From Mesorhizobium sp. 113-3-3 (lineage in GTDB: Bacteria; Pseudomonadota; Alphaproteobacteria; Rhizobiales; Rhizobiaceae): a stretch of DNA of 64,000 nucleotides. Below, piece by piece: positions 25,403 to 28,712 of the stretch. Made by a program: the position numbers and the translations under genes. The stretch covers positions 1,240,001 to 1,304,000 of the forward strand of contig NZ_AP023243.1 in assembly GCF_016756495.1 (NCBI RefSeq), read 5' to 3'. Position 1 is the first letter of the stretch; each line of letters starts with the position of its first letter. The notes beneath the pieces were generated by a model that was given only the letters and a program-made list of their open reading frames with translations, was not told the origin of the DNA and did no database searches.

Positions 25403-25713
25403 TCCTTCGCGCTGTTAGTGCCGCAATCCCGGGACAGTTGGTTCGGTTCGGCACAGAGAGCCTGTGCCGCAACAGCACGTCGCGGAACACTCAGCGGCTG
25501 CTTCAGGTTGAGCATGGTAAGCGGTTCGTAAACGCGACTGGGGCCACGTTGTTAGCGTTTACCGTTCGTTGACCCTTGTTAAGAGGGAAATCAAACAAAA
25601 ACAACAGATTGATGGTTCACGGCTCGGTTCCGGCGCTCGGCGGGCGGCTTCCGGCTGGAATCCTGCATTGCCCCTATTGCGGCGACGAGGCCGAGGCATG
25701 CGGAGGCTGTTGG
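25403..25713. other. Gap upstream of the TadG-like gene
   Basis: There are no convincing genes in this 311 bp. The stretch from about 25550 to 25610 is AT-richer (GTTAGCGTTTACCGTTCGTT, then AAATCAAACAAAAACAACAG) and is the likely promoter and leader of the gene at 25714. I could not assign exact -35/-10 boxes. Confidence 0.4.
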
Positions 25714-27075
25714 ATGCGAAATTACGGGGGTCTTGTTCACGCGGTCGGCGGGTTCGCCAGACACAGCGGTGGAAATTTCACAATCCTGTTCGGCTTTGCT
25801 GCCTCGGTCCTGGCGCTGGCCGCCGGCTTCTCGGTCGACATCTCGCAGCTCTACAACGCCCGGTCGAGTCTGCAGGGCGTGGTCGACGCCGCGGTGACGT
25901 CAACGGCGCGCGACCTGACGACCGGCGTCATCAAGGAGGCCGACGCCAACAAGGCGGTGCAGAACTTTCTCGTGGCCAACAATACGGCGGGCATCCTGCA
26001 GCCCGACCAGATCGTGCTCGACAGACTGGTCGTCGACAGGACCGCCAAAACGGTGCAGGCGGATGTCCATGTCGATGTCGCCCTGTTCTTCCCGGTTTTC
26101 GGCATGGGCAATACGAAGCGCGTCACCGCGTCGACGACATCGCTTTATTCGGACAAGACCATCGAAGTGGCGATGATGCTCGATGTGACGGGATCGATGG
26201 CCGGTCAGAAAATCCAGGACCTGAAGACCGCCGCGGCCAATGCGGTGGATAGTTTCCTGGGCGGCCAGGACCCGAACAGGCCGCGGGTGCGGGTGTCCAT
26301 CGTGCCCTATGCCAACTCGGTCAATGCCGGCCAGCTGGCAGCCAGCAGCGTCTATGTTGAAACCAACGCCGGCCAGCGCAAGCAGGCGCCCGGCAATGCG
26401 AGCCCTCAGCTTGCCTCGGCGTCGCCGCGTCCGGACAATTGCGCCACCGAACGCAAGGGGGTCGATCAGTATTCGGACGCGGGTCCCGACTCCAGCATGG
26501 TCAATCGCGACTATCTTTTGTCGGGCTTTGCCACGAAAACAGGCACCGCCGCTTGCCCGGTCGCCGCGCTCGTGCCTCTGACAGCCGACGCTGCCACACT
26601 CAAGAATGTCATCAAGGATCTTGTCGCCTCGGGCGGTACCGCCGGCCATATCGGCGTCCAGTGGACCTGTTATATGCTCTCGGAAAGCTGGGGCAGCGTG
26701 CTCAACGCTTCGCAGCGGCCAGCCAAGTTCGATCCGAAGAAAGTCGGCAAGTACGCAATCCTGATGACGGACGGCGAATTCAACCTGTCCTATTTCGACG
26801 CCACCGGCGTTGACGGGGTCTACAACGACGCCGGCAAGGAGACGACCCGCACGGCGGCGACAAAGCTCTGTGCCGCCATGCGCGACAAGGGCATAGAAAT
26901 CTTCACGATCGGCTTCAAGCTCGATGAGGCGAATGCGGTCACGACGCTGCAGACCTGTGCCAGCCCCGATACGGGTTCAGCCAAGCACTTCTACCAGGCC
27001 GCCGACGGCGTCGAACTGGATACGGCCTTTCAGACCATCGCCCGCAACATCGAGACCCTGGCGTTGACGAAATAG
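25714..27075 (+). CDS. TadG-like pilus assembly protein with von Willebrand factor A domain
   Basis: About 453 residues. I chose the ATG at 25714 because GCGGAGGCTGTTGG precedes it; the frame is open upstream to a TTG at 25576. A basic/polar start leads into one membrane segment (FTILFGFAASVLALAAGFSV, about residues 22-41), the TadE/TadG N-terminal pilin-like signature followed by DISQLYNARSSLQGVVDAAV. The VWA domain starts near residue 150: MMLDVTGSMAGQKIQDLKTA is a MIDAS-like DXTGS motif, and the late strand is ILMTDGEFN. No other tad/flp genes are nearby, so this is an orphan copy. Confidence 0.88.
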   Translation: MRNYGGLVHAVGGFARHSGGNFTILFGFAASVLALAAGFSVDISQLYNARSSLQGVVDAAVTSTARDLTTGVIKEADANKAVQNFLVANNTAGILQPDQIVLDRLVVDRTAKTVQADVHVDVALFFPVFGMGNTKRVTASTTSLYSDKTIEVAMMLDVTGSMAGQKIQDLKTAAANAVDSFLGGQDPNRPRVRVSIVPYANSVNAGQLAASSVYVETNAGQRKQAPGNASPQLASASPRPDNCATERKGVDQYSDAGPDSSMVNRDYLLSGFATKTGTAACPVAALVPLTADAATLKNVIKDLVASGGTAGHIGVQWTCYMLSESWGSVLNASQRPAKFDPKKVGKYAILMTDGEFNLSYFDATGVDGVYNDAGKETTRTAATKLCAAMRDKGIEIFTIGFKLDEANAVTTLQTCASPDTGSAKHFYQAADGVELDTAFQTIARNIETLALTK

Positions 27076-27092
27076 GGCTTGGCCCAAAGGAA

Positions 27093-27125
27093 AAGGCCGC
27101 CGCTTCTTTCGAAGCCGGCGGCCTT
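27093..27125 (-). terminator. Rho-independent terminator, best read on the minus strand
   Basis: AAGGCCGCCG-CTTC pairs with GAAGCCGGCGGCCTT with a single bulge. On the minus strand the stem is followed by TTTTCCTTT, a usable U tract; on the plus strand the following bases (CCGTGTTTCC) are poorer. It can serve the TadG-like gene, but its polarity fits the small minus-strand gene at 27195-27266 better. Confidence 0.7.
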
Positions 27126-27194
27126 CCGTGTTTCCGTCCATGGCGCGGCCTGTGGCGGCAACCCCTTCGGGTCACCTGCCGCGCATCTCGCGCC

Positions 27195-27266
27195 TTAACG
27201 GGAAGACTGCTTCCCGAAAGTGCAATCCGCTGAGGCCACGTTCTGGAAAACGAAATCACTCGACAT
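27195..27266 (-). CDS. Candidate 23-codon small protein gene
   Basis: The ORF starts at the ATG at 27266 and encodes 23 residues beginning MSSDFVFQNVASADC and ending KQSSR. Directly upstream on the minus strand is GAAAGGAGGTGATCC, a 15-nt perfect complement of the classical 16S rRNA 3' end; so extended a site is rare by chance. A promoter-like pair lies further upstream (27303-27331) and a terminator follows (27093-27125), giving a unit of about 205 nt. No family is recognised. It could be a real microprotein, a leader peptide, or the coding part of a dual-function RNA. Confidence 0.55.
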   Translation of the reverse strand: MSSDFVFQNVASADCTFGKQSSR

Positions 27267-27302
27267 CGGATCACCTCCTTTCGATTTGTTGAACACACAG
27301 AC

Positions 27303-27331
27303 ATGATGGGGTGCGTCGCGGGAAATGACAA
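27303..27331 (-). promoter_or_regulatory. Promoter-like sequence for the 23-codon ORF
   Basis: On the minus strand TTGTCA (complement of 27326-27331) and CATCAT (complement of 27303-27308) are separated by 17 bp. The -35 is one mismatch from consensus; the -10 is weak. The implied start would leave a leader of about 30 nt before the ATG at 27266. Confidence 0.4.
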
Positions 27332-27449: not shown

Positions 27450-28712
27450 ATGGACGCCACCGAGAGGGCCGCGCGCATCGTTCGAACGGTGATCGAGGCG
27501 CTGAAGCCGGGTTTTGCCGTCAGGCTGTGGACCGGGGAACGGATCGGCCCAGCCGGCGGCCCGGTGCTTGCCATCAACGATCAGGATATCGTCTGGCAAC
27601 TGGCCCGCCGGCCGAATTTCTCGACGCTGCTCGAAATGTGGATTTCCAGGACGATCGACGTCGAGGACGGCTCGCTGTTCGATCTCTACGCCCTGCCGTC
27701 ACAGGGCAAGCTGAGGCTGAAGGCGCTGCCGAAACTGGCGATCCTGCGCGACCTGCCCGCCGTCTTGTTTTCGCGACGGCAGATGACGAAGCGGGCCGAT
27801 CTTGCCGGGCACAACCCCTTTGTCAGCGGTTCGAACAAGCAAGCGATCGAACATCACTACGACATTTCCAACGCCTTCTACCGGCTCTTCCTCGACGAGC
27901 GCATGGTCTATACCTGCGCCTACTTCACCGATTTCGCCAACGGCATCGACCAGGCGCAGAAGGACAAGCTCGACCATATCTGCCGCAAGCTGAGGCTGAA
28001 GCCGGGTGACCGGCTGCTCGACATTGGCTGCGGCTGGGGCGCGATGCTGATCCATGCCGCCAAGCACTATGGCGCCATCGGCCATGGTGTGTCGCTGTCG
28101 GAGGAGCAGACCCGGCTGGCGCGCGAGCGCATCCGCGCCGAGGGGCTGGAGGACAAGATCACCATCGACATCAAGTCCTACACCGAGCTCGACGGCAGCT
28201 ACGACAAGATCTCGTCCATCGGCATGTTCGAGGCGGTCGGCCTCGCCAATCACGCCACCTATTTCTCGACCGTCCACCGGCTGTTGAAGCCAGGCGGCAT
28301 CTATCTGCATCATGCCATCACGAGGCGCGGCAAGGGCGGCACGCGCAAGACTTTGCGCAAGGGCGCGGAATACAAGGCGTTGATCAAATACATCTTCCCC
28401 GGCGGCGAGGTCGACACGATCGGCATGACATCAGGCAATCTCGAGGCGCATGGCTTTGTCATCGCCGACGTCGAGAATCTGCGCGAACACTATGCCCGCA
28501 CCTGCAGGCTGTGGGCCGAGCGCCTGCAGGCGCGCTTCGACGAGGCGATCGCCGAGGTCGGCGAGCCCAAGGCACGGCTATGGCTGCTTTATCTCACCGG
28601 CTGTTCGATCACCTTCGATCGCGGCTCGGCGCAGATTTTCCAGACCGTCGTCACCAAGCGCGCGCGGGGGCCAAGCGGCCTGCCGCCGACGCGGGCCGAC
28701 CTTTATCGGTAG
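27450..28712 (+). CDS. cfa: Cyclopropane-fatty-acyl-phospholipid synthase
   Basis: A 420-residue SAM-dependent enzyme that methylenates cis double bonds of membrane phospholipid acyl chains. The N-terminal about 110 residues are the lipid-binding lobe. The segment IEHHYDISNAFYRLFLDERM (about 133-152) followed by YTCAYF, the SAM loop LLDIGCGWGAMLIHAA (about 188-203), and SIGMFEAVG with the conserved Glu are characteristic. Rhizobia often carry two paralogues; which one this is cannot be told. The start ATG at 27450 follows GGGAGGGACC. Confidence 0.95.
   Translation: MDATERAARIVRTVIEALKPGFAVRLWTGERIGPAGGPVLAINDQDIVWQLARRPNFSTLLEMWISRTIDVEDGSLFDLYALPSQGKLRLKALPKLAILRDLPAVLFSRRQMTKRADLAGHNPFVSGSNKQAIEHHYDISNAFYRLFLDERMVYTCAYFTDFANGIDQAQKDKLDHICRKLRLKPGDRLLDIGCGWGAMLIHAAKHYGAIGHGVSLSEEQTRLARERIRAEGLEDKITIDIKSYTELDGSYDKISSIGMFEAVGLANHATYFSTVHRLLKPGGIYLHHAITRRGKGGTRKTLRKGAEYKALIKYIFPGGEVDTIGMTSGNLEAHGFVIADVENLREHYARTCRLWAERLQARFDEAIAEVGEPKARLWLLYLTGCSITFDRGSAQIFQTVVTKRARGPSGLPPTRADLYR

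Follow-up and report, generated by a model that had tools for sequence, protein, structure and literature searches.

A small RNA unit of Alphaproteobacteria, related to CC2171, that keeps a near-complete anti-16S site, a start codon and a stop codon around a drifting peptide

The 64,000-nucleotide stretch of the Mesorhizobium sp. 113-3-3 genome analyzed here (the window) carries a compact unit on its minus strand between two plus-strand genes assigned by Pfam, i.e., a Tad/VWA-domain gene (25576-27075), the end of which faces the unit, and a CMAS-family (cyclopropane-fatty-acid-synthase-like) gene (27450-28712), which starts behind the promoter of the unit. The Tad/VWA gene adjoins the unit in 9 of the 24 same-genus loci (own included), and the CMAS gene in 2. 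The parts of the unit are as follows:

27326..27331, minus strand: -35-like box TTGTCA, read from the sequence, with CTTGTC, CTTGCC or similar at the matching place in same-genus relatives
27303..27308, minus strand: -10-like box CATCAT, 17 nt downstream of the -35 box, read from the sequence
27086..27300, minus strand: whole predicted transcript, approximately 210 nt, the 5′ end being placed from the -10 box
27288..27293, minus strand: 5′ leader TTCAAC
27268..27282, minus strand: extended Shine-Dalgarno (SD) site GAAAGGAGGTGATCC, complementary to the 16S 3′ tail except its last base
27195..27266, minus strand: 23-codon open reading frame (ORF) with its stop (ATG...TAA), peptide MSSDFVFQNVASADCTFGKQSSR, read from the sequence
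27250..27259, minus strand: 5′ strand of the long-range helix P1 (codons 3-6), from the Rfam CC2171 consensus structure and pairing tests
27199..27216, minus strand: hairpin CGGGAAG-CAGT-CTTCCCG overlapping the last ORF codons, from covariation
27128..27137, minus strand: 3′ strand of P1, immediately before the terminator stem, from pairing tests
27086..27125, minus strand: intrinsic terminator AAGGCCGCCGGCTTC-GAAA-GAAGCGGCGGCCTT and a T-rich tract, read from the sequence

A first-pass annotation of this DNA had proposed the promoter pair (TTGTCA at 27331-27326, 17 nt, CATCAT at 27308-27303), the 23-codon minus-strand ORF and the G+C-rich hairpin (27125-27093, followed by TTTTCCTTT), all of which are confirmed by direct reading, and the comparisons described below support its concept of a compact unit and show the translation start to be conserved. 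The CATCAT box is kept in most same-genus relatives and altered in, for example, loci L013, L015, L022, and L023, and the SD 15-mer carries a single substitution in each of L012 and L028.

The SD site is separated by one base (G) from the ATG (27266-27264) and is exceptional in its surroundings. The 15-mer GAAAGGAGGTGATCC occurs exactly once in the window, and the sole other site within 3 mismatches has 3 of them, the mean number of sites within this distance in the shuffled window being 1.54; the 14-mer AAAGGAGGTGATCC is present in one copy in its own 7.7 Mb genome, in a count that excludes rRNA because no 16S gene was found in the sequence searched. Since the 16S end was read in relatives (as AGAAAGGAGGTGATCCAGCC on the complementary strand in L220, L221, L226, and L230), the 15-nt complementarity to 16S rRNA directly before the ATG, as claimed in the first-pass annotation, is real. 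The predicted duplex between GAAAGGAGGTGATCC and the 16S tail reaches -28.2 kcal/mol, whereas the 39 long ORFs of the window have a median of -9.6 and a best value of -16.0 kcal/mol, although the best candidate start near each 5′ end was used for them, which favours this background; the further claim of a site far beyond those of ordinary genes is thus borne out. In the predicted minimum-energy fold of the window RNA, a small local hairpin forms around the SD; by that model, ribosomes would not find the landing site fully open.

The distribution of the unit was followed with several kinds of search. By blastn, it was found in 24 of 25 same-genus genomes including its own (23 of the 24 others) and in 30 of 41 genomes in total, and short matches were also obtained in some of the order's other families; one match outside the genus (L030) is not a unit. 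Scanning of named genomes with the pattern CAACN{2,8}AAAGGAGGTGATCCRRTGTC yielded at least 118 loci, and the orders among the matches listed, which we take from the placement of the genera to be Rhizobiales, Sphingomonadales, Rhodobacterales, Caulobacterales, Acetobacterales, and Rhodospirillales, are accompanied by two loci (L078 and L088, also among the matches listed) titled Proteobacteria only. The bare 14-mer is present in 93 of 289 genomes of the class and absent from 196, and the reversed control is present in 2; 30 of these class loci were fetched and comprise 11 16S ends and 19 units, all with ATG or GTG right after the SD, and the figure of 93 therefore overstates the number of genomes that bear a unit with the 14-mer because some matches are 16S ends. 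The pattern AAGGAGGTGATCCNRTG, which excludes 16S ends, is found in 63 of 121 alphaproteobacterial genomes versus 1 of 178 from other classes of the phylum.

Within the family, the 14-mer is present in 73 of 151 genomes, and the 30 loci fetched comprise 23 units, 5 16S ends (one of which, L232, has an altered downstream base), and 2 sites without a start codon. A covariance model built from 44 units (R1) was applied to 32 family genomes without the exact 14-mer and gave a match at E ≤ 0.1 in 24 of them, 23 of these below 1e-9, and thus performed better than a mismatch pattern search, which matched 3 of the same 32. Among the 23 variant units obtained in this way (L259-L281), 14 carry AAGGAAGGTGATCC, 5 carry another form with the same extra base, and 4 are without it; the extra base lies within the anti-16S site and introduces one bulge into the 16S duplex (-24.2 versus -28.0 kcal/mol). 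Some genomes without the exact 14-mer thus carry variants, and others may be without the unit.

The unit is a stand-alone element with no shared neighbour gene in the loci examined. Briefly, the downstream gene is convergent in 45 of the 69 loci in which it could be scored by heuristic ORF calls, and in 29 loci the unit is overlapped by a long ORF, which may be real or spurious; ten flanking proteins from nine loci include seven with Pfam families, all different, and three without a Pfam family. A cis-acting leader or attenuator is rejected because there is no constant downstream gene on the same strand. The 216-base unit was without a match in the phage and plasmid record collections, and a phage or plasmid origin is likewise rejected.

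For the comparative analyses, 184 distinct units were collected, leaving out identical cores, ORFs of more than 70 codons, 16S ends, and cut loci. A start (ATG or GTG) within 2 nt of the site was required for this set, and start conservation is therefore judged from the fetched 14-mer loci, where ATG or GTG follows 19 of 19 non-16S sites from the class and 23 of 25 from the family. Among the 184 units, the start is ATG in 112 and GTG in 72, and the spacing from the SD is 1 nt in 183 and 0 nt in 1; in L191, the SD and the ATG are one base closer together than elsewhere, and the leader lacks the usual CAAC. A G precedes AAAGG in 173 of 184 units, and the position corresponding to the last 16S base is C or T, not A, in 158 of 184, where the complementarity stops. 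CAAC lies at most 14 nt before AAAGG in 62 of the 68 units that were not drawn from a CAAC-containing pattern, and, of 40 units retrieved with the bare 14-mer, 35 have a CAAC-containing stretch.

The ORF is 14-59 codons in length (18-26 codons in 167 of 184 units), and its stop is kept beyond what the other stop triplets in the same alignments show. Among 137 nearest-neighbour pairs, which are not fully independent, 93 with an unchanged stop and 9 with a gap were set aside; of the 35 changed aligned stop triplets, 20 are still a stop and 15 have lost it at its place, compared with 11 of 93 still a stop for other stop triplets (Fisher 4.5e-7). Start, spacing, and stop are thus conserved, as would be expected of a functional small protein (SEP), and the first-pass annotation, which had staked its proposal on conservation of the ATG, the frame, and the SD in related genomes, is upheld on that point.

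By contrast, purifying selection on the amino-acid sequence is not evident, although the same test is strongly positive in neighbouring genes. Nearest-neighbour differences within seven equal-length groups (123 of the 184 units) give 272/296/244 substitutions at codon positions 1/2/3, and single-base codon changes, summed over the 7 groups, comprise 86 synonymous (83.5 expected) and 203 non-synonymous (205.5 expected) ones, whereas the same count for the two neighbouring genes in same-genus loci is 267/184/711, with 580 synonymous changes versus 230.5 expected. Weak peptide selection could be masked in this comparison by RNA constraint, which can also lower synonymous change. Insertions and deletions are multiples of three in 33 cases versus 125 others, in alignments that are poor. 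Of the 40 units obtained by scanning with the bare 14-mer, 37 have Ser at the second codon, and apart from MS there is little that peptides from one order have in common with those from another. Depending on the frame, the conserved 3′ motif yields EQP, GAA or SSL; a C-terminal EQP peptide motif is rejected because the same nucleotides are read in three frames. Furthermore, the peptide string MSNEIS was without an occurrence in the open-access papers searched.

The nucleotides that recur across frames belong to a hairpin near the stop codon, defined as a G-C-closed CA[AG][CT] loop with at least 4 pairs. Shuffling predicts 0.3 MSS-type units and 0.1 Rhodobacter-type units with such a hairpin, whereas 73 of 76 and 14 of 18, respectively, have one. 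It is read in all three frames where it lies inside the ORF and is located after the stop in the Rhodobacter types. In 44 aligned units, 93.5% of its cells are paired, double changes occur at 7 of 7 pairs, and the covariation score is 0.638 versus 0.300 in shuffles and at most 0.310 in slid versions. The hairpin is missing in 65 of 65 MSH/MSHG-type units and found in 2 of 25 others and is therefore not universal.

The second conserved pairing, P1, connects the beginning of the ORF with the segment before the terminator. The Rfam CC2171 structure already pairs CAUUGUC (codons 3-5) with GACAAUG before the terminator; in sphingomonads, CAUGGUUCAGC can pair with GCUGACCAUG, and in the window P1 is formed by GUGAUUUCGU and ACGGAAACAC with one A-A mismatch, most of it appearing in the predicted fold. 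When codons 2-8 were paired with the 28 nt before the terminator in 176 units, the cognate duplexes were stronger than shuffled ones in 5 of 5 groups (p 3e-4 to 1e-13) and stronger than those from exchange within the group in 4 of 5, the Rhodobacter group being the exception (p 0.46). For the best 7-pair helix, the share of paired cells is 89.7% in 48 TCTCA-type units, with a UA/GC/CG exchange at pair 4 and a shuffled maximum of 85.1%, and 79.8% in 42 SS-type units, barely above the shuffled maximum of 79.1%. A terminator-like hairpin is present in 177 of 184 units by a heuristic. Conserved RNA structure thus accompanies the ORF, as in a dual-function or translated sRNA. As a separate observation, Rhodobacter-type units (e.g., L063, L072, and L082) carry a CCTCCT-containing stretch after the stop that is not seen in other types and that, judging from its letters, might base-pair with the SD or with purine-rich segments of the ORF.

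The closest known RNA is CC2171 (RF01867), which is filed in Rfam as a Caulobacter sRNA. At the curated cut-offs, Rfam gave 0 matches in the window, whereas a relaxed search aligned CC2171 with 27290-27094; the score of 35.2 bits falls short of the cut-off (75), and the E value is 7.2e-6 for 531 bases and 2.5e-5 for the genome. The full model (1-159) is aligned, including CAACAAUCGAAAGGAGGUGAUCC, the start region, and the terminator; several pairs of the long-range helix are non-standard in this alignment, and different pairs make up a helix at that position. With a full-length match below the cut-off, the unit of the window is a diverged relative of CC2171 by sequence comparison and not a member by the rule of Rfam. 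When 18 diverse loci were scanned, 6 passed the cut-off, and each of these has a VSH-type ORF (two from Brevundimonas and one each from Bosea, Methylobacterium, Falsiroseomonas, and a MAG labelled Rhizobium); at least one other locus of the VSH type (L080) fails it, and loci of Sphingomonas (L059), Ruegeria (L063), Bradyrhizobium (L094), and Mesorhizobium (L001) lie below it. In the class, 26 of 115 genomes have a match at E ≤ 0.001, 4 of them over the cut-off, with scores grading from 90.5 to 27.7 bits, and among 14 named control genomes a match was obtained in Caulobacter vibrioides only.

CC2171 is named in PMC11701678 and PMC5596092, and the available parts of both are silent on an ORF or 16S complementarity. 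The available part of the latter lists the predicted sRNA MH_s33 of Mesorhizobium huakuii, a 215-nt RNA-seq product labelled RF01867 CC2171, which is probably the orthologue of the unit, matched by label rather than by sequence; the nine RNAs tested there by Northern blotting came from the novel set and not from the Rfam-labelled one to which MH_s33 belongs. Furthermore, SEP1 of Sinorhizobium meliloti (23 aa, pI 4.18) had the highest translation efficiency among 54 Ribo-seq candidates, according to the available part of PMC10117765. Among the 23 family variant units, 20 encode peptides of 23-24 aa with pI values of 4.05-10.83, 18 of these 20 being below 7 and the 23-aa ORF nearest to SEP1 in pI being that of L270 (pI 4.05), and SEP1 may thus be the Rhizobiaceae form of this ORF, a likeness of length and pI rather than of sequence. 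The CC2171 RNA family, a Mesorhizobium member, and P1 in the Rfam structure for the CC2171 type are on record. The extension of P1 to the other types comes from the present pairing tests, and the open-access papers searched did not describe how widely the unit extends, its near-complete anti-16S site, the stop-codon hairpin, or the combination of a conserved start and stop with a peptide that drifts.

Some other systems resemble the unit in single respects. The icaR mRNA of Staphylococcus aureus reportedly pairs its 5′ and 3′ untranslated regions, a 3′ segment binding the translation-start region, which is similar in outline, although icaR is an ordinary protein-coding mRNA and shows no sign of common descent with the unit. 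The STAB-SD of Bacillus cry mRNA is said to be a strong SD-like site that binds 16S rRNA; unlike the site described here, it is said to lie away from a start codon and to stabilize a downstream gene. Extended SD sites of S. aureus pair over a long stretch near the start codon, as here, and are treated as a general start-site feature in the available part of PMC13009471, whereas the full-length site occurs once in its own genome here. The Caulobacter SisA-D sRNAs carry an anti-SD motif, the opposite of the site of the unit (PMC12559287, in the part available), and the available parts of PMC2873474, PMC12218461, and PMC5082802 contain nothing recognizable as this RNA.

Across the collected units, the SD, start, spacing, stop, P1, terminator, and, in two clades, the stop-codon hairpin are conserved, and no constraint on the peptide is detectable. 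On balance, we lean towards a structured small mRNA under selection for ribosome loading and for its fold, in which ribosome traffic switches the fold and the RNA rather than the peptide is the output. The CAAC-containing leader, the near-full anti-16S SD, and the fixed spacing would recruit the 30S subunit at near-maximal strength. P1 sits where the initiating ribosome would sit, so that initiation would have to open it, and the hairpin, in or beside which the ORF of the Mesorhizobium-type and Rhodobacter-type branches ends, would have to be opened or masked by a terminating ribosome. With a leader that looks built for loading and helices placed at the sites of initiation and termination, ribosome occupancy would set the conformation of the RNA and perhaps its lifetime or its ability to bind targets, and the small RNA would act in trans. 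A more specific form of this proposal, which we put forward tentatively as a possibility with the balance against it, is a class-wide sensor of ribosome occupancy, in which the RNA would hold nearly the strongest ribosome site that a cell can have, a throw-away ORF serves as the moving switch through P1 at its start and the hairpin at its stop, and the conformation reports ribosome supply to other RNAs.

The first-pass annotation had suggested a highly translated microprotein; on this reading, the RNA features would only serve expression. The conserved start, spacing, and stop, the serine at codon 2, and the possible link to SEP1 through the short and mostly acidic variant peptides (as far as the available part of that source goes) speak for this reading; it is nevertheless weakened, and we regard it as unlikely, in view of the absent codon-position bias, the strongly positive result of the same test in neighbour genes, peptides that have little beyond MS in common between orders, and a hairpin and 3′ motif indifferent to the frame. 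The lack of detectable peptide constraint agrees with an abundant RNA that holds small subunits through its 15-nt 16S duplex and tunes the pool of free ribosomes, the ORF only releasing them, as do a complementarity of near full length at about -28 kcal/mol kept in several orders and the frequent G before AAAGG. Such a 30S decoy is quite improbable in our estimate, with the single copy in its own genome, the one-base bulge in the site of many family genomes, and P1 and the stop-codon hairpin left unexplained.

A conventional base-pairing sRNA, the strong ribosome site of which would merely shield its 5′ end from RNases by analogy with STAB-SD, would fit a stand-alone unit with a terminator and conserved structure and the annotation of CC2171 as an sRNA in Rfam, but it leaves the kept stop codon unexplained, and we think it very unlikely. 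The first-pass annotation had also considered that the plus strand mimics the 16S tail; this is rejected because the start codon, the stop, the covarying helices, and the terminator are all on the minus strand. A coincidence or a stray 16S fragment read backwards would explain why the site equals the complementary sequence of the 16S end. However, 184 distinct units share the promoter, start, stop, fold, and terminator, the complementarity ends at the last 16S base (C or T in 158 of 184) with no further 16S sequence after it, and the fragment is rejected, its chance being next to nil.

If the sensor proposal holds, the unit would be a riboregulator whose signal is translating itself, and neither a peptide nor a cis-linked gene. 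An RNA filed as a Caulobacter sRNA proves to be a gene found across a large part of a bacterial class, with start and stop kept while the peptide drifts, and the family, with some 200 members in hand, separates being translated from coding for a useful protein. It thereby lends itself to a clean test of whether the loading of ribosomes can act as a regulatory signal in its own right, and it also carries a warning, as ribosome profiling could score such RNAs as small proteins.

At the upper end of the length range, the ORFs behind the matching SD in three Azospirillum loci (L113, L154, and L172) reach 57-59 codons and begin like secreted proteins, with a hydrophobic stretch followed by small residues, which gives them the look of a short ORF lengthened into a genuine gene.
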